NCBI GenBank assembly: GCA_001784565.1
Contig: MFRL01000004.1
Location: forward strand, 1 to 38,117
DNA from: Candidatus Melainabacteria bacterium GWF2_37_15
GTDB lineage: Bacteria; Cyanobacteriota; Vampirovibrionia; Gastranaerophilales; UBA9971
DNA: 38,117 nucleotides
Reading direction: 5' to 3'
In this document: positions 8,513 to 23,724 of the stretch, piece by piece
How the letters are laid out: each line of letters begins with the position of its first letter
Position numbering within the stretch: position 1 is the first letter of the stretch
Position numbers and translations under genes: made by a program
The notes under the pieces: model-generated
The model's database searches: none
Told to the model about the DNA's origin: nothing
The model's input: the letters and a program-made list of their open reading frames with translations, nothing else

Positions 8513-10102
8513 ATGAGTGGAAGCAAAAAAGTCTGTCTAGCATTAATACTGGGTGTTATATTGATTAGCGTTCCCTGCTGGGCTATGAATAAAAAAGCCC
8601 GTAAGCACTTTAATAACGCAAATAAACTTTACAAAGCCCAAAACCTTATAGGGGCTAAGGTTGAGTATGAAAAAGCAGCAGGGATTGCTCCAGATGAGGC
8701 TATTATTTACATAAAGCTGGCAGGGCTTTTTTCCGAGCAGGGCAACTGGCAGGAAGCGCTTGAAAATTATAGAAAAGCTGCTATTTTAAGCCTTACTGAC
8801 GGATATTTATACCTTAGTATAGGAAGCATTTTGCTGGAACAAAAGGATTATGAAGGAGCTTATGAGGCTTATATAAAAGTGCCTGCACTTTCGCCTGATT
8901 ATAAATATATTTATCTCAATCTTGCGCAGGTGCAAAACCTAAGAGGCAATGCGCAGGAAACAATTGAGCATTACAAGACTTTTTTATCCTATTATCCTGA
9001 CCATATCAATGCCAGAAAAAGCCTTGCTTCCAAGCTTTTGGAGATAAATAAAGCTGAAGAGGCTGTTAATGAATATGAAACTTTAATAAAAAACAGCCCT
9101 GATACTTTTTATGACTGGGAAAATTATGGTAAAGCACTTATTCTGACTGAGAATTATCAGAAAGTTATTGATGTATTCGCTCCCGTAGTGGAAAAAATTC
9201 CGGATGACTCTAATCTAAGACTTATTCTTGCTACAGCTTATACTAATACAGATGAAAAACAAAAAGCTGTTGATGAATATAAAGAAGTATTAAAAATCGA
9301 TCCTAAGCTAGTCGATGTTAATTTTAATATAGCAAATTTTCTGGATAAGCTGGGCAACGCTGATGAAGCAATTGAATATTACCTTGCATATATTGCAAGT
9401 GTACCGGATAACCCTGATGCTTATTACAACCTGGGCATAATTTATCAGGAAAAAGGAGACTTTAATCAATCTAGTAATATGCTTTTCAAGGGTCTTGAAT
9501 TAAAACCTGATGATTTAAATATTTTAAAAGAACTGGGAAAAAATCACTTATTGCTTGGTGATTATGGAAAAGCAATAGAATATTACAATCAGGCACTGCA
9601 ATATAACAGTGATGACCCTGAAATATACTATAATATTGCTTTCGTTCATAATTCTTCTGATAATTATGATCAGGCAATTGAATATTACCAGAAATCACTT
9701 GCCATAAAAAATGATAGCAAGGTTTTACAGGACCTAATCCAAGCCTACTTGGCTGCAGGGAATAAGTGCAAGGAAAGCTCTCAATTAGCGGAAGCTCAGA
9801 ATTATTATCAGCAGGTGCTTTTGCTTGATCCTGAAAATGTTGATGCAAAATTTAACTTGGGGCTTGTGTTTTTTGACCTTAATGATTATAGCAAGGCAAA
9901 GGAATATTTCATAGAAACAATACAGGTAAACCCCGAATTTCCTCTTGTTTATTATGTTCTTGGGGTATCATTAGATAAAGAAAAGAACTATGCAGAGGCT
10001 CTGGTAAATTATAAACAATTCCTGACTTTAGCACCTGACGATGAAAACGTTCCCGCCGTACAAAAGAGAGTTTCCGTCCTTGAAAATATTAGAAAAAAAT
10101 AA
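8513..10102 (+). CDS. Exported TPR-repeat protein
   Basis: This 529-residue protein has an N-terminal signal peptide (KVCLALILGVILISVPCWA, probably cleaved after CWA). The rest is about 14 tetratricopeptide repeats of ~34 residues, for example GNWQEALENYRKAAIL, DYEGAYEAYIKVPAL, NADEAIEYYLAYIASVPDNP and DYGKAIEYYNQALQYNSDDP. TPR solenoids are protein-binding scaffolds; here it would act in the periplasm or at a membrane surface. I start it at the ATG at 8513, directly before the basic n-region; the frame otherwise extends upstream to a TTG at 8492. Its stop is one base before the start of the TonB-family gene, so the two are translationally coupled and may work as one envelope complex. Confidence 0.85.
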   Translation: MSGSKKVCLALILGVILISVPCWAMNKKARKHFNNANKLYKAQNLIGAKVEYEKAAGIAPDEAIIYIKLAGLFSEQGNWQEALENYRKAAILSLTDGYLYLSIGSILLEQKDYEGAYEAYIKVPALSPDYKYIYLNLAQVQNLRGNAQETIEHYKTFLSYYPDHINARKSLASKLLEINKAEEAVNEYETLIKNSPDTFYDWENYGKALILTENYQKVIDVFAPVVEKIPDDSNLRLILATAYTNTDEKQKAVDEYKEVLKIDPKLVDVNFNIANFLDKLGNADEAIEYYLAYIASVPDNPDAYYNLGIIYQEKGDFNQSSNMLFKGLELKPDDLNILKELGKNHLLLGDYGKAIEYYNQALQYNSDDPEIYYNIAFVHNSSDNYDQAIEYYQKSLAIKNDSKVLQDLIQAYLAAGNKCKESSQLAEAQNYYQQVLLLDPENVDAKFNLGLVFFDLNDYSKAKEYFIETIQVNPEFPLVYYVLGVSLDKEKNYAEALVNYKQFLTLAPDDENVPAVQKRVSVLENIRKK

Positions 10103-10103
10103 T

Positions 10104-10910
10104 ATGGAAGAAGGGATTTCATTGCGGAATTCCTTTATCATATCAGCTTTTGGGCATTTTATTGCAGCGATTTTAGTGTGGTTATTGGTTAAATTAATAA
10201 TATTCCTGCTGTTAATGTTTGGTTTAAATATACCAACTATAGAAAAACCTGAGCCTACGCCGCAGGACATACAATTTGTATTTGTAAAACCTGTAAAACC
10301 TCAAATAAAACAGATAAAGCAGAATAAAAAAATATCCTCAGCAAACAAAGGCGGCAAAAAAAATGCAGTAAAAAAACTAAAACCGGAAAATCCTCATAAA
10401 GGAGAGAGTTCTCCTAAAAACGATGAACCTGATGAACTCTCTATTCCTGTTCCTAAAATTAAACCTTTATCATCAAATGTCGGATCAGGCGCACAGGGCA
10501 GCTCTGGGCCCGCTTCTTCTGACTCAATCTCAGGAGACGGCGATGGAACAGGCAGCGGTAGACGAAGAGACGGTGGACTTGGAAACTCATATGTTATTAA
10601 CAATATTCTGGATAACCCTGACATTACACCGTATATTAATGAACTTCAAAGAAGAATAAACTGGAATTGGAAACCTCCCGCAGGCAATGAAAACAAAAGG
10701 GTTGAATTATTTTTAAGGATTGCAAAAGATGGCAGGCTGGTTATATTAAATATAAAGAAAACATCCCTTAGTGGAGAAATGGATAATGCTGCCTTGAATG
10801 CTGTAAAAAAGTCCCTGCCATTAAACCCACTGCCTTCTAATTATAAGCAGGGTTATCTGGATGTAGTTTTTTCCCTTGATTATAACGTGGTTTCTAAGGC
10901 TACTCATTAA
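10104..10910 (+). CDS. TonB/TolA-family energy transducer
   Basis: This 268-residue protein has one N-terminal membrane span (about residues 12-42, with histidine in AFGHF). A long linker rich in P, K, then S and G follows (QFVFVKPVKPQIKQIKQNKK; GSGAQGSSGPASSDSISGDG). It ends with a TonB C-terminal domain of ~90 residues (PYINELQRRINWNWKPP, VELFLRIAKDGRLVILNIKK, DNAALNAVKKSLPLNPLP). The family transmits proton-motive force from ExbB/ExbD or TolQ/R to outer-membrane receptors, but none of these partners is in the window. I use the ATG at 10104, one base after the TPR stop. An upstream ATG at 10041 would overlap the TPR gene by 62 bases and put a non-hydrophobic leader before the membrane span. 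Confidence 0.8.
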   Translation: MEEGISLRNSFIISAFGHFIAAILVWLLVKLIIFLLLMFGLNIPTIEKPEPTPQDIQFVFVKPVKPQIKQIKQNKKISSANKGGKKNAVKKLKPENPHKGESSPKNDEPDELSIPVPKIKPLSSNVGSGAQGSSGPASSDSISGDGDGTGSGRRRDGGLGNSYVINNILDNPDITPYINELQRRINWNWKPPAGNENKRVELFLRIAKDGRLVILNIKKTSLSGEMDNAALNAVKKSLPLNPLPSNYKQGYLDVVFSLDYNVVSKATH

Positions 10911-10913
10911 TTG

Positions 10914-11075
10914 CGGCGCAGGACACATTTATTGTTTTCCTTTTAGGTTAGCTTTGACGTATAAGTTAATTTTAAGGGGAGAAACTGGCCGCGCAGCGGC
11001 CAGTTTCTCCCCTTAAAAAACTATTTTTACGTCAAAATTAATATGGAAAATAAATAACTAGCCATTACTGCGCCG
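10914..11075. repeat. Hairpin repeat element, copy 1 (162 bp)
   Basis: The element has terminal inverted repeats CGGCGCAG (10914-10921) and CTGCGCCG (11068-11075) and inner complementary segments (TTTGACGT near 10953, ACGTCAAA near 11029). The central hairpin has perfect 23-base arms at 10970-10992 and 10996-11018 around the loop GCA. The same architecture and much of the sequence recur, in opposite orientation, at 12490-12654. The two copies flank the CorC-like gene. It lies just after the TonB stop and could also end that operon, since TTAAAAAACTATTTTT follows the hairpin. A miniature mobile element (MITE-like) or structured intergenic repeat is the best reading; no target duplication is obvious. 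Confidence 0.75.
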
Positions 11076-11185
11076 AGGTTATGTTTTAATTGCAAAACAG
11101 TATAAATAGGGAGTAATACCCTGTTAGCTATATTTTTTCTTCTTTTTTTAGGCTGACATGAAATAGAAATTAAAGATGCTTAAAA

Positions 11186-12475
11186 ATGATTACTGCTGAA
11201 TTACTTATCATATTTATTTTAATAGCGTTAAATGGAATACTGGCAATGTCTGAAATTGCTATTATTTCATCAAGAAAAGAGCGGTTGCAGCAACTTGCTT
11301 CCGAGGGAAATTCAAGAGCACAGGCTGCTTTGGATTTGGCAAATGAACCTAATCGCTTTCTATCCACTATTCAAATAGGAATTACTCTGATAGGTGTTTT
11401 AGCGGGTGCATTTGGTGGAATAACAATAGCAGGAAGGCTGGGTGAACTATTTAATACAATACCTTTTATAAATCCTTACGGTGCTACAGTAGGTTTAACT
11501 GTTGTAGTTATTGCAATTACTTATTTAACCGTGGTTTTTGGGGAGATTGTACCTAAAAGGCTGGCTTTAATTTTCCCTGAAAATATAGCGTCGTTTGTAG
11601 CCCGGCCAATGCTCCTGTTGTCAAAAATTGCATCTCCTGCTGTAAAAATTTTTAGTTATTCTACAGATGTTGTCTTAAAAATACTGGGAATTAAAGAAGT
11701 ACAAGAGCGACACATTACAGAAGAGGAAATTCTTTTACTGCTGGAGCAGGGAGAGAAAGCCGGTACAGTAGAAGAAGAGGAAAAATCTATAGTTGATAAT
11801 GTTTTTAACTTGACTGATCGCCAGGTGGGTTCACTGATGACTTCCAGAAACCAGATTGTATCGCTTGACCTGGAAAATACGATAGAGGAAAATACTCGAA
11901 TAATAAATGAAAGTATTCATAGTATCTTTCCGCTTTGCAAGGGTGGGCTTGAAAATATTATAGGGGTAATTCACGCTAAAAGCCTGTTATCTGAATTTGT
12001 TACCAGAAAAATTACAGATTTATCACAGTTAGCTGATCAGCCATTATTCATTCCTGAAACAATGAAAGCATTTAAGGCATTGGAACTTTTTAAAAAATCA
12101 GGGAAACATTTTGCTTTTGTCGTGGATGAGTATGGGGTTGTTCAGGGATTGCTGACGATTATAGATATATTTGAAGCGTTGGTGGGTGATATTCCAACAA
12201 TTGAAGAAATTATAAGCCCTCTGGCAGTTCAAAGAGAAGATGGAACCTGGCTGCTTGATGGATTATTCGAAATAGATGATTTTAAAAAACTTTTTGAAAT
12301 AGATGAATTACCTGATGAAGACAGCGGCGACTATAACACAATAGGAGGTTTCGTTATTTATCAGATGGAGAAAATTCCTATTGCATCTGAGTATTTTGAT
12401 TGGAATGGATTTAGGATTGAGGTTGTGGATATGGATGGGAATAGGGTAGATAAAGTGCTTTTAACAAAGAAATAA
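11186..12475 (+). CDS. CNNM/CorC-family transporter-like membrane protein (DUF21, CBS, CorC_HlyC)
   Basis: This 429-residue protein has the hemolysin C/CorC family order. A DUF21 (CNNM) membrane domain of 3-4 spans covers about residues 1-190, with FLSTIQIGITLIGVLAGAFGG and VVFGEIVPKRLAL. Two CBS modules span about 205-335 (SLMTSRNQIVSLDLENTIEE; FAFVVDEYGVVQGLLTIIDI). A C-terminal CorC_HlyC domain of ~80 residues follows (DGTWLLDGLFEIDDFKKLF). Members are linked to magnesium or sodium/cobalt export and to heavy-metal tolerance, and the name hemolysin is historical. The ATG at 11186 lacks a strong Shine-Dalgarno. It stands alone between two opposite copies of a hairpin repeat and converges on recQ. 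Confidence 0.88.
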   Translation: MITAELLIIFILIALNGILAMSEIAIISSRKERLQQLASEGNSRAQAALDLANEPNRFLSTIQIGITLIGVLAGAFGGITIAGRLGELFNTIPFINPYGATVGLTVVVIAITYLTVVFGEIVPKRLALIFPENIASFVARPMLLLSKIASPAVKIFSYSTDVVLKILGIKEVQERHITEEEILLLLEQGEKAGTVEEEEKSIVDNVFNLTDRQVGSLMTSRNQIVSLDLENTIEENTRIINESIHSIFPLCKGGLENIIGVIHAKSLLSEFVTRKITDLSQLADQPLFIPETMKAFKALELFKKSGKHFAFVVDEYGVVQGLLTIIDIFEALVGDIPTIEEIISPLAVQREDGTWLLDGLFEIDDFKKLFEIDELPDEDSGDYNTIGGFVIYQMEKIPIASEYFDWNGFRIEVVDMDGNRVDKVLLTKK

Positions 12476-12489
12476 ATCAAAACATAATC

Positions 12490-12654
12490 GTGGCGCAGTA
12501 ATAGATAATTTTTGTATTTTCCATATTGATCTTGACGTAAAAACAACTATTTATATGGTGAAGCTGGCCGCACAGCGGCCAGCTTCACCATATAAAATTG
12601 ATTTATCACGTCGAGGACAAGCCAAAAGAAAAACAAAAAATGTGTACTGCGTCG
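12490..12654. repeat. Hairpin repeat element, copy 2 (165 bp, inverted)
   Basis: Read on the minus strand this aligns with the element at 10914-11075 from end to end, roughly three quarters identical by eye. Its ends are GTGGCGCAGTA (12490-12500) and TACTGCGTCG (12645-12654). The central hairpin has perfect 22-base arms at 12550-12571 and 12575-12596 around the loop ACA on the plus strand. The hairpin tip CTGGCCGC/GCGGCCAG is identical to copy 1. The lower stem differs (GGTGAAG versus GGGGAGAAA) but pairs perfectly in both. It lies between the convergent CorC-like gene and recQ and could serve both as a terminator. Confidence 0.75.
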
Positions 12655-12671
12655 TTTTTAAATAGACACTT

Positions 12672-14513
12672 TTAAATAGGTAGTAAAAGTACCTCAAGAA
12701 AGAGTTTTCCGTATTTATCAAGTTTGGTTTTTCCGACTCCTGAAATCTGTCCCAGTTCCCATAAGGTTTTTGGCATTACAACTATCATATCAATTAAGGT
12801 AGTGTCGTGGAAGATGACATATGGCGGCACATTTTGTTCTTTTGCAAGGGATAACCTCAGTTCCCTTAACTTCATGAAGAGAGCCTCAGACGTTGGATCA
12901 GTAAATGAAGTGCGTTTACGGGTTTCGGTTTTCTTGGATTTTGATGGTTTTTCTTTAATGGTCTCATTACGTAAATAAATTTTTTCCTGTCCCCGAAGGA
13001 TTTTATTTGATTCAGCAGTTAGTTTAAGCGCTCCGAATGCCTCCATATCAACATTTAAAAGTCCTGAAGCGATAATTTGCCTGAAAATCGATTTCCATTG
13101 AAATTTATCGAATTCCTTGCCTATTCCAAAGGTGCTTATTTTATTATGATTAAACCTTTTAATCTTCTCATCTTCTTTTCCTGTAAGAATATTAATGATA
13201 TGAGCTGCCCCAAATCGCTGTTCAGTCCTAAAAATACAGGATAATGCCTTCTGAATCGCAACTGTAGCATCAAATCCTGTTACTGGTTCGAGGCATGTAT
13301 CGCAGTTATCACACTTGTTGTCAGTTTTTTCTCCAAAATATTCCAGTAATATCTGTCTTCTGCACTTCATGGTTTCAGCATAACCTACCAGCGTATCCAG
13401 TTTTTGGTGCTCAATTCGTTTCTGCTCAGCAGGGGCCTCGGATTGATAAATAAATTGCCTTAATTTGACGATATCTTCTGTTCCATAAACCATCCACGCA
13501 TTAGAAGGCAGTCCATCACGCCCTGCTCTGCCGGTTTCCTGATAATATGCCTCGATGCTTTTTGGTAAATCCATATGCGCAACAAACCTGACATCCGGCT
13601 TATCAATCCCCATCCCGAATGCGATTGTCGCAACCATAATCACGCCGTCATTTTTAATGAAATAATCCTGGTTTTTTCTTCTTACTTCATTATCTAGCCC
13701 TGCATGATATGGCAAGGCGTTATACCCTTGACTCTTTAGATATTCTGCTATGCCCATAACTTTGTTTCTGGAAATACAGTAAACAATGCCTGAATCGCCT
13801 TTGTGTTCTGTTTCTATAAAACTCAAAAGCTGTTTTTTCTCATTGTCCTTTGGCGTTACCCTGTATCGTATATTGGGTCTGTCAAAGCTGGAGCTGAACA
13901 CTCGGCCGTTTTCCAGCCTTAAATGCTTAATAATATCCTGTCTGGTAAGTTCATCTGCTGTTGCAGTCAAAGCAATACGGGGAACATTTGGAAAAATGTC
14001 TTTAAGTTTGGCAAATTCCGTATACTCCGGCCGGAAATCGTGTCCCCATTGCGAAACACAGTGCGCTTCATCAATTGCAAATAATGAAATTTTACATTGG
14101 GTTAAAAGGGTAAGAAACCTTTCAGTATTGAGCCTTTCAGGTGATACATAAACTATATCAAGCATCCCTTTTTGCATTTTGGCTTCAATTTCTGCTGCTT
14201 CCTTATTTGATAATGTTGAATTTAATACAGAAGCTTTTATTTCCAGCTGTTTCAACGCATCAACCTGATCCTGCATCAATGCGATAAGTGGTGAAACCAC
14301 AACTACGATTCCTTGCATACATAAGGCCGGGATTTGATAACAAAGGGATTTTCCACCGCCGGTAGGCATCAGTATCAGTGCGTCTTTGCCGTTTATAATA
14401 TGCTCAATGATTTCCGCCTGCTCTCCGCGAAAGGACTTATAGCCGAATATTGTCCGTAATATAACAAGAGGATCAAGAGGTTTTTGCTGTAGAGTACTGG
14501 TCATAGATTTCAT
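12672..14513 (-). CDS. recQ: ATP-dependent DNA helicase RecQ
   Basis: This 613-residue protein is a full RecQ. The Walker A motif is PTGGGKS (residues 50-56), helicase motif II is [19 protein letters not shown], motif VI is [10 protein letters not shown], and the zinc-binding cysteines are [20 protein letters not shown] winged-helix region follows, then a C-terminal HRDC domain ([20 protein letters not shown] through [13 protein letters not shown]). It unwinds DNA 3'-5' in recombination and repair of stalled forks. Its ATG overlaps the stop of the amylosucrase-like gene (ATGA), so it is translated as the last gene of the sugar operon. That is an odd coupling for a repair helicase and may only reflect genome compaction. 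Confidence 0.96.
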
Positions 14514-18206: not shown

Positions 18207-19190
18207 TTATTTTGCTAAAAATTCTTCTAATTCTTTCCTGGTGGGCAAAGCGCTCATTGCACCCGGCTTTATAGTAGCTAGTGCGCCGACTGCATTTGCT
18301 TTTGTTAAAATAAAGCTGATTTCCTCACTGGCAATGTTTTCTATATCCTGATTTTCAGTATTTATATACTCATATATACCGCCAATCAGTCCTGAAACAA
18401 AACCGTCGCCAGCCCCTGTCATTTCAACTGACGGGACTTTAAATGGTTGTACATAGCCTCTGCCGTTTTTATTTATATAAAATGAACCTTTTTCGCCCAT
18501 TGTTATAACAAGTAATTTCAGGCTGTATTCATTAAAAACCTTTTCAGCTGCGGATTCTATGTTATTTTCTATGCCACTGACCAAGTTTACTTCGTCGTCG
18601 CTGAGTTTTAACACATCAACGTATTTAATAGTCTGTTTTATGACATTAACCGCTTCTTCTACTGATGACCACACTGCCGGCCGCAAATTCGGGTCATAAA
18701 CCTTGATATTATCGTTTTTAGTGTTTTCAAGAATTCTTTTAATTACGTTTCTACTTTTTTCACAAGCCTGTATAAATGAACCAAAATATATAATTGAAGC
18801 GTTTTTAAGGTTATTTAAATCAATTTTATCATACTCAAGCATAGTATCAGCGCATAATGACTTGCTAAATCCCTTAAATACCCTGTTTCCGTTTTTGTCA
18901 GTAAGTACATATGCACATCTGGTACCGGCATTTTCAATTGTTTGAGAATGCGATACATCTACATTAAGTGAATTTAAGTGATTTTTTAACCATTCTCCGA
19001 AAATATCCTGAGAAAATCCGCCTATGAACTGTACCGGATAACCCTGCTTCGCAAGCCCTACAGCCACGTTTGCAGGCGCACCCCCCGGCAGTTTAATGAA
19101 TTCATTCGCTTCGTTCAAATCAAGGGTCTTATTCAGGCATGTCCAATCAACCAACACTTCGCCGATTGAAATGATTTTTCCATTTTTCAT
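18207..19190 (-). CDS. PfkB-family carbohydrate kinase, probable fructokinase
   Basis: This 327-residue protein has both PfkB signatures. LPGGAPANVAVGLAKQG (residues 34-50) is the sugar-binding region, and VEMTGAGDGFVSGLIGG (255-271) is the anion hole with catalytic base D262. ISIGEVLVDW at the start and the overall length match bacterial fructokinases. It would phosphorylate fructose to fructose 6-phosphate with ATP, taking up the fructose released by the amylosucrase-like enzyme two genes downstream. It is the first gene of the sugar operon, 18 bases before the transporter. No strong Shine-Dalgarno precedes the ATG. 2-keto-3-deoxygluconate or ribokinase activity is less likely given the context. 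Confidence 0.87.
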   Translation of the reverse strand: MKNGKIISIGEVLVDWTCLNKTLDLNEANEFIKLPGGAPANVAVGLAKQGYPVQFIGGFSQDIFGEWLKNHLNSLNVDVSHSQTIENAGTRCAYVLTDKNGNRVFKGFSKSLCADTMLEYDKIDLNNLKNASIIYFGSFIQACEKSRNVIKRILENTKNDNIKVYDPNLRPAVWSSVEEAVNVIKQTIKYVDVLKLSDDEVNLVSGIENNIESAAEKVFNEYSLKLLVITMGEKGSFYINKNGRGYVQPFKVPSVEMTGAGDGFVSGLIGGIYEYINTENQDIENIASEEISFILTKANAVGALATIKPGAMSALPTRKELEEFLAK

Positions 19191-21831: not shown

Positions 21832-23724
21832 TTACATATGCCACACTCCGGCAATAATATTCATCAGCTCTGCACTGTTTTTCACATCTTCTACACTGGT
21901 TAATACAATGCCGTTATTATTTCCATAGGCGGTAATGTCCTGTATAACCTGGTTGGCTTCTGTGTTAGTCATGAACACACCATCATTACCAAGCTGAATC
22001 CTCTCTATCTGATTGGCTGTGACGTCCCAATCCTTAACAATGATTTTGTCAATACCTGCTACATCACCATAATCAAGATAGAACGTGCCTGATGCGTTCT
22101 TAAACAGGGCAATGTCATTCTTTTCAATAAGGTATTCCAGACTGATGATGTCCGGGCCGCCGGAATCCACAACAGTGTCAATTCCATCCCTAGGGCCAAA
22201 AACGAACTTGTCCAGGCCTTCTCCGCCATCGAGCAGGTCGTTGCCTGAATTACCGTACAGGTCATCATCTCCGCCTTTTCCGTATATTGTGTCATTACCT
22301 TCTTTGCCAAAAATATAATTGTCCAGGTCGTTTCCTGTTGCTATATGTGCGTTTTCTTCAAGATATAGTTTTTCCACATTAGCAGGAAGGGTATAGTCTA
22401 CGGAACTGCGGACAATATCCTTTCCCTCGTATGGATTTTCAACTATAACATCACCCGGATCATCAATAAAATAAGTATCATTACCTGCACCGCCAAGCAA
22501 GGTGTAACTTTTGTCCTTGCCATAAAGCGTGTCATCTCCGATTGTCCCGTAAATTGAATCATTTCCCGGGGGTGGAGGAAATAAGGCATCTATTTCCTTT
22601 GAGGTCATAGTAGAACCATCAGCAAAATTTAATGTTTCAATTTTTTGTTGGTTTTCTCCAAACCAACCTACTAGTGTAAGCTTATCAGTTGTGTTTTTAA
22701 TGCTGATAATAAGGTTCTCATCAATTTTATTAAAGTCTAAATTCGTTGTAGTCAGCTCTAGAATATCATTTCCGTTCCGGTCTTCTATAGTGTCATTGCC
22801 ATCGCCAACATTAAATAGATATGAGTCATCTCCATCGAAATCAAGGATAAAATCATCGCCGGTTCCGCCCTGTATTGTGTCATTGCCGCTTAAATCGTGA
22901 ATAGTATCATTTCCTCCTTCTCCAAGTAGCAAGTCATTGCCGCTAAGGTCGTAAATACCATCGTTGCCAGCCCCGCCAAAGATATTATCATTGCCGTTAT
23001 AATCCACAATATAGTCGTTTCCGTCTCTACCATTAATCAGGTCATTTCCAAAAACATCATGAACAGTGTCATTTCCGGCATCGCAGTAAATAAGGTCATC
23101 GCCTTCGGTATCTAAAATAAAATCATTGTCATTTCCGGCATTAACAATATCATTGCCAGCTTCTGTGTAGATGGTATCATAGCCGTCACCGCCGTTAATT
23201 TCATCATTTCCTTCCCCACCGGCCAGCATGTCATTTCCTGTAGCTCCATATAGAATGTCAATTCCTGTTTCTCCAAGCACAAGATCATCGCCTGCACCAC
23301 CATAGAGAATATCGGCATCATTGCCGCCAAAAATATAGTCATTACCATCCTCGCCGTTCATGGTATCGTTTCCGTCCTGACCAACAAGTACATCATCTTC
23401 CGTGCCGCCGTTAAGGCTATCATTGCCTATCTCACCGTAAAGGGAGTCATAGCCAGCTCCGCCATTGAGCGTATCATCTCCATCTCCACCGGCTAAAAAG
23501 TCATCACCGGCATCACCGTTCAATACATCATTTCCGGCTTCACCAAGTAAAAGATCATTTCCGAGTCCTCCTAATAGGAGGTCATTATTTGCACCCCCAT
23601 AAAGAGAATCGTCACCATCATTGCCAAAAAGTGTGTCATTTCCATCCAGTCCAACAAGAATATCATTTCCAAGCCCACCGATAAGACTATCATCTGCAAA
23701 TGTTCCATAGATAGTATCAGCCAT
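21832..23724 (-). CDS. RTX (hemolysin-type) calcium-binding repeat protein
   Basis: This 630-residue protein is built mostly of GGxGxDxLx nonapeptides. The run begins at about residue 9 (DDSLIGGLGNDILVG, LDGNDTLFG) and continues to about residue 305. Shorter blocks lie near 385-415 (YGTIGDDTLYG, LLGGAGNDTYF) and 465-500. Such repeats form calcium-bound parallel beta rolls after secretion. There is no N-terminal signal peptide, and the non-repeat C terminus (to ELMNIIAGVWHM) is where a type I secretion signal is expected. No ABC exporter, membrane fusion protein or catalytic domain is present here, so it is probably a surface or adhesion protein and not an enzyme. GGGGGAG precedes the ATG closely. 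The start is firm. Confidence 0.88.
   Translation of the reverse strand: MADTIYGTFADDSLIGGLGNDILVGLDGNDTLFGNDGDDSLYGGANNDLLLGGLGNDLLLGEAGNDVLNGDAGDDFLAGGDGDDTLNGGAGYDSLYGEIGNDSLNGGTEDDVLVGQDGNDTMNGEDGNDYIFGGNDADILYGGAGDDLVLGETGIDILYGATGNDMLAGGEGNDEINGGDGYDTIYTEAGNDIVNAGNDNDFILDTEGDDLIYCDAGNDTVHDVFGNDLINGRDGNDYIVDYNGNDNIFGGAGNDGIYDLSGNDLLLGEGGNDTIHDLSGNDTIQGGTGDDFILDFDGDDSYLFNVGDGNDTIEDRNGNDILELTTTNLDFNKIDENLIISIKNTTDKLTLVGWFGENQQKIETLNFADGSTMTSKEIDALFPPPPGNDSIYGTIGDDTLYGKDKSYTLLGGAGNDTYFIDDPGDVIVENPYEGKDIVRSSVDYTLPANVEKLYLEENAHIATGNDLDNYIFGKEGNDTIYGKGGDDDLYGNSGNDLLDGGEGLDKFVFGPRDGIDTVVDSGGPDIISLEYLIEKNDIALFKNASGTFYLDYGDVAGIDKIIVKDWDVTANQIERIQLGNDGVFMTNTEANQVIQDITAYGNNNGIVLTSVEDVKNSAELMNIIAGVWHM
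22780..23720 (-). repeat. 27-base tandem repeats encoding RTX nonapeptides
   Basis: On the minus strand the RTX gene is a long array of diverged 27-base units of the type GGnGGnnATGATnnn. They encode consecutive calcium-binding nonapeptides. The units are coding and in frame, so slippage or recombination between them would change the beta-roll length without breaking the gene. This is not a CRISPR array: there are no identical repeats with unique spacers. Confidence 0.7.

Follow-up and report, generated by a model that had tools for sequence, protein, structure and literature searches.

Inverted palindromic segments flanking a CorC-like gene are probable members of a new MITE family with hairpin interiors

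Why does a CorC-like gene lie between two long palindromic segments that are inverted copies of each other? The window analysed here, a stretch of 38,117 nucleotides from Candidatus Melainabacteria bacterium GWF2_37_15, raises this question, and a sequence-only reading of it had offered three answers: a MITE-like dispersed family, a composite unit able to move or invert the gene, or a regulatory bracket. The two segments, W1 and W2, are real homologues in opposite orientation (77% identity by BLAST, query bases 7-177 of 177). The GCGCAG/CTGCGC ends, inner GACGT/ACGTC pairs and central hairpin described in that reading are all present in both, and its coordinates were nearly right, except that the first core starts slightly earlier, with a longer element end outside it (Table 1). 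Both segments fold strongly, with z = -11.6 for W1 and -10.2 for W2, and 0 of 200 dinucleotide shuffles folded equally well for each. The W1 core begins 2 bases downstream of a TonB-like stop codon, while W2 is placed in the gap between corC and recQ, whose 3' ends converge. Elsewhere in the window, a 630-aa ORF (21832-23724, minus strand) contains many GGxGxD-type repeats and by eye resembles calcium-binding RTX proteins.

Table 1 Features of the W1-corC-W2 region (window coordinates)
Feature	Position	Strand	Basis or remark
TonB-like gene (TonB_2), upstream neighbour	10041..10910	+	Pfam
TAA terminating the TonB-like gene; left-hand side of a possible W1 target duplication	10908..10910	+	Tentative, by analogy
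W1 core, palindromic, MITE family	10913..11075 (covariance model to 11076)	+	BLAST, folding, covariance model
W1 central hairpin, perfect 23-bp stem, loop GCA (inverse of the commonest loop TGC)	10970..11018	+	
W1 right-hand terminal inverted repeat, 18/25 bases as in the family end	11078..11102	-	Shuffle mean 13.1, 99th percentile 16
TAA abutting the right end of W1; right-hand side of a possible target duplication	11103..11105	+	Tentative
CorC-like gene (CNNM, CBS, CorC_HlyC)	11186..12475	+	Pfam
Stretch like the inner half of the W1 terminal repeat, right behind the corC stop	12476..12489		By eye; negative score
W2 core, palindromic, orientation opposite to W1	12490..12655	-	BLAST, folding, covariance model
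W2 central hairpin, perfect 22-bp stem, loop TGT (family orientation)	12550..12596	-	
RecQ helicase gene, convergent with corC	12672..14513	-	Pfam

The core proved to be a dispersed repeat. The blastn and covariance-model searches that the sequence-only reading had proposed returned 23 copies in the genome of origin (G000; 2,265,768 bases in 102 contigs, 92% complete), 19 by the covariance model and four further by BLAST (C59, C64, C10 and C18:8439), and a solo terminal end without a core copy lies at C84:11453. Nearly all are outside ORFs: a script-based scan found no ORF of at least 60 aa overlapped by 40 nt in 22 of the 23 copies, the exception being a 65-aa frame. Among 10 genomes of the family, a DNA match to the core occurs in G000 alone. 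The covariance model (R1), run with strict filters against 146 genomes of the order, matches three and is strong in G000 only; its matches in G002 (32.6 bits) and G037 (27.8 bits) were inspected and not counted as core copies. The right border of the core differs among five copies. A second close pair lies at C53:16096-16255 and 18625-18785, 2.5 kb apart and in the same orientation. To our knowledge, the interior resembles no named family. A phage or plasmid origin was rejected for lack of any match in phage and plasmid collections, and the exact core pattern has 0 matches in viral contigs. The exact 18-base end occurs in two viral-contig records with phage-like genes nearby, where no transposase was recognised among the ORFs listed; we regard both as probable chance matches.

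Comparing the flanks outward from the core revealed that the element extends beyond ~165 bp into a longer terminal inverted repeat with a consensus near TACCAAATTGCAATCAATGCATAAC. Taking the 99th percentile of shuffles as the cut-off, at least one end is recognised in 7 of the 23 G000 copies and both in 2; the seven are an undercount because some loci are offset, with L222 and L159 placed by eye. W1 has no terminal repeat remaining on its left side, and end scoring found none above the 99th percentile on either side of W2. One of the two-ended copies (C18:8289-8519) is flanked by TTA on both sides and the other has unequal flanks, giving one duplication in two.

The ends recur outside the genome of origin. 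A profile built from 12 G000 ends (R2) gave, at E <= 1, at least 20 matches in G000, a number that is partly circular because the profile comes from there, together with at least 128 in G002, at least 12 in G008 and at least 1 to 10 in each of the other seven genomes. The matches in G002 (best E-value 7.5e-6) and G008 (best 0.0026) are independent of the ends used to build the profile. The G002 elements with family ends are ~145 bp long. Fifty regions were extracted around R2 matches (49 from G002, 1 from G008), of which nine gave no end pair; distinct end pairs number 41 (40 in G002, 1 in G008), L338 having been left out (42 to 41) as lying in the same place as L293. Identical 3-bp flanks surround 36 of these 41 elements, against 17.0 +- 2.8 when right flanks were shuffled (0 of 20,000 shuffles as high). 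The duplicated triplets are TAA (20), TTA (12), TCA (2), TGA (1) and CTA (1), so that 35 of 36 fit TNA with CTA as the exception, and the fourth flanking base matches in no duplication. In 3 of the 30 elements with wider flanks (L361, L362 and L363), the TAA that was duplicated also terminates a reading frame of 175 codons or more, a count that leaves out L358 for its doubtful left end.

Because of these ends and 3-bp duplications in a related genome, W1 and W2 are best read as decayed non-autonomous MITEs with TNA targets, and the first answer of the sequence-only reading is supported. In our judgement they are unremarkable members of a new MITE family: very probably they are separate decayed insertions of one non-autonomous DNA transposon family. 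Intact members carry inverted-repeat ends of the type TACCAAATTGCAATCAA..., enclose a single long palindrome with a perfect hairpin at its centre, and insert at 3-bp TNA sites, mostly TAA or TTA, duplicating the target. Among the R2 end matches listed, none belonged to an autonomous element or was accompanied by a transposase; mobilisation would most likely depend on a DDE transposase acting in trans and generating 3-bp TNA duplications. Insertion beside stop codons would spare genes, and by analogy with the G002/G008 elements W1 may tentatively be placed as an insertion at the TAA that terminates the TonB-like gene, its left repeat now missing.

The hairpins carry a second record. The central hairpin is present in 22 G000 copies and missing in L226 (C58:27870), where it is cleanly gone, as a palindrome deletion or a collapse in the assembly would leave it. 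Stems are perfect in 16 of the 22, with 4 G-T pairs and 5 mismatches in 451 pairs (summed by hand), and their sequence is variable; in G002, 33 of 35 are perfect, with 0 G-T pairs and 2 mismatches in 696 pairs, all as found by a script that is biased toward paired stretches. Where stems differ among copies, both arms are altered together. The loops also vary. G000 has TGC (7), GCA (3), TAC (4), TTC (3), TGT (3), GAA (1) and AAA (1), with two loop types present in both directions, and G002 in fixed orientation (n = 35) has GTA in 19, TAC in 9 and others in 7. In a weakly resolved tree built from the outer sequences (1 of 23 inner branches starred), at least nine loop changes are needed to account for the nine TAC loops among 28 GTA/TAC copies. 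Outside the hairpin L289 and L308 do not differ at all, yet their loops are opposite; loops also differ within the well supported tree pair L311/L329. Interior sequences are unlike between genomes, and what is common is the design: a perfect stem of ~20 bp with a 3-base loop.

Template switching between the arms of an inverted repeat homogenises the arms and inverts the spacer, as described in PMC8604942 in the parts consulted. The paired stem changes, the lack of G-T pairs in G002 and the inverted loops therefore point to DNA template switching rather than RNA selection. After insertion, arm-to-arm template switching during DNA synthesis would keep the stem perfect and flip the loop. Another reading is that one shell, defined by TACCAA ends and a TNA target, holds unrelated palindromic interiors in different genera, each with the same stem-and-loop design, and that the hairpins are made perfect and the loops inverted not by later replication errors but because movement itself passes through a hairpin, one arm templating the other, so that both features would be the mark of every transposition. 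We regard this as unlikely.

A different proposal is that the core itself is mobile, as a REP- or ERIC-like palindrome carried now in a TACCAA shell and now in a second element. Such a second repeat, with ends AATGTCGTCAACTTAAG, encloses four core copies, and two more have one such end (in the form AATGTCGTCAAC, on both sides in the four and on one side in the two). In addition, at least four copies (W1, L222, L145 and L226) have a sharp left edge at GCGGCG, beyond which their flanks are unrelated. However, no target duplication was found at the core edge, and L212, which lies inside the second element, by eye retains pieces of TACCAA-type flank, so that nesting is simpler. We thus consider mobility of the core improbable. 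The second repeat has 12 exact end matches in G000 and one each in G004 and G005; because several sit at contig ends, it probably represents an insertion sequence at which the assembly breaks. Its sites include G000:C5:78, C17:61, C31:93, C59:22778, C83:11758, C84:64, C91:10543, C96:10187 and C97:78, among others, and it often adjoins short GC-rich palindromes such as GGGCTAAAGCCC; it looks like an insertion sequence targeting REP hairpins, although no transposase of its own was seen. G000 further encodes two Y1_Tnp (RAYT-like) genes of 175-176 aa, L253 (C71:1418) and L254 (C67:12106), each flanked, by eye, by short palindromes in inverted pairs whose stems differ in sequence. Since it is these other palindromes, and not those of the family, that flank the RAYT-like genes, an origin from a resident RAYT/REP system was rejected, which also argues against a mobile core.

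The family could instead be a structured RNA, or a bidirectional 3'-end element such as a terminator or mRNA stabiliser, kept for its function. The strong folding of W1 and W2 fits this idea, as does the bias toward gene 3' ends: by crude ORF calls, 26 of 44 flanks in G000 and 32 of 48 in G002/G008 are gene 3' ends, and among the 21 G000 copies with both flanks called, eight lie between convergent frames versus four between divergent ones. Purifying selection against promoter hits, however, predicts the same bias, which may reflect tolerance rather than function. Terminator-like matches number nine against 2.0 +- 1.6 in shuffles, but these are mostly two hairpins counted repeatedly with weak T tails, and T before the stem with A after it is the reverse of a terminator. 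G002 stems without G-T pairs and with inverted loops are unlike RNA selection. A known RNA family was rejected as the identity, as no Rfam family reaches gathering thresholds in the window. Together, these results make an RNA function quite improbable as the explanation.

The idea of a composite or local unit, in which the inverted copies brought corC in or exchange sequence through its inversion, draws on the distribution of corC and on the proximal arms of the two copies. The gene is patchy, occurring in 3 of 10 family genomes (E <= 1e-50), and its neighbourhood differs in each. The locus has no synteny in G002, where the TonB-like gene is followed by an agmatinase-like gene (named by eye), or in G005, where the recQ neighbourhood holds a peroxiredoxin gene and no corC; neither an empty site of W1 or W2 nor an inverted corC locus was found in these comparisons. 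Among 13 copies compared, nine with broken or very different right arms having been left out, W1 and W2 match each other best in the arm that faces corC (74%, bootstrap 0.86). The distal arms, however, are not paired, W1 being closest to L212 (93%) and W2 to L221 (81%), and L222 on another contig by eye has the W1/W2 tail too, so that a shared subfamily suffices for the likeness of the proximal arms. No target duplication was seen at the outer edges of the whole W1-corC-W2 unit, and the nearest corC relatives, which place the organism in Candidatus Gastranaerophilales and lie in G004 and G005 (L031 and L032, 71% identical), have no element beside the gene or, at the thresholds used, elsewhere in their genomes. 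With 24 copies placed at random, 32% of trials contain a pair no more than 1.58 kb apart (P = 0.32). A composite unit is thus highly improbable, and the other two suggestions of the sequence-only reading, a mobile corC unit and a corC-specific bracket, are not supported and were set aside. The segments are neither confined to this locus nor always found beside corC, which is probably bracketed by two family copies through chance.

Our analysis thus traces a pattern resembling a gene-specific bracket to a mobile family that can be named. The many closely similar copies, with stems changed on both arms and loops turned round, would amount to a natural record of how a DNA hairpin is maintained without RNA selection, and this bears on the use of compensatory changes as evidence for structured RNA. 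The wider gain is one shell that holds different palindromic interiors across genera, together with this record of hairpin rewriting. In the open-licence literature searched, such repeats are apparently undescribed in this uncultured bacterial group.

The family resembles known bacterial MITEs, which in the sections consulted of PMC3733652 include RUP, NEMIS, ERIC, Nezha, EFAR and others. It shares with them a size of 70-300 bp, terminal inverted repeats, a non-coding interior, a location near genes, strong folding and target duplications, the last seen here in the related genome. Unlike the MITEs listed there, it has its own end sequence and a TNA target, and no match in Rfam (for the window) or in the phage and plasmid collections. 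The 3-bp TNA duplication that the G002/G008 elements display is also that of the IS1031 group of the IS5 family, as given in parts of PMC12016507; the ends differ, beginning GAACC in the one quoted member compared and TACCAA here. REPs and REPINs moved by RAYTs are likewise palindromic, intergenic and biased to gene 3' ends, and G000 has two RAYT-like genes, whereas the REP size stated in PMC3733652 is 20-40 bp against the ~165-bp core. CGTC-tagged REPs are resembled by the interiors of L285 and L286 (G002) and L303 (G008), where the palindrome CGTCATTGCGAG...CTCGCAATGACG lies between TACCAA ends, as if such a REP sat in a MITE shell. Finally, arm homogenisation and spacer inversion, the marks of template switching, are found here as well; in the portions consulted of PMC8604942 and PMC8794818 they are described in yeast genes and RNA hairpins, whereas here they appear in multicopy mini-transposons of a bacterium.
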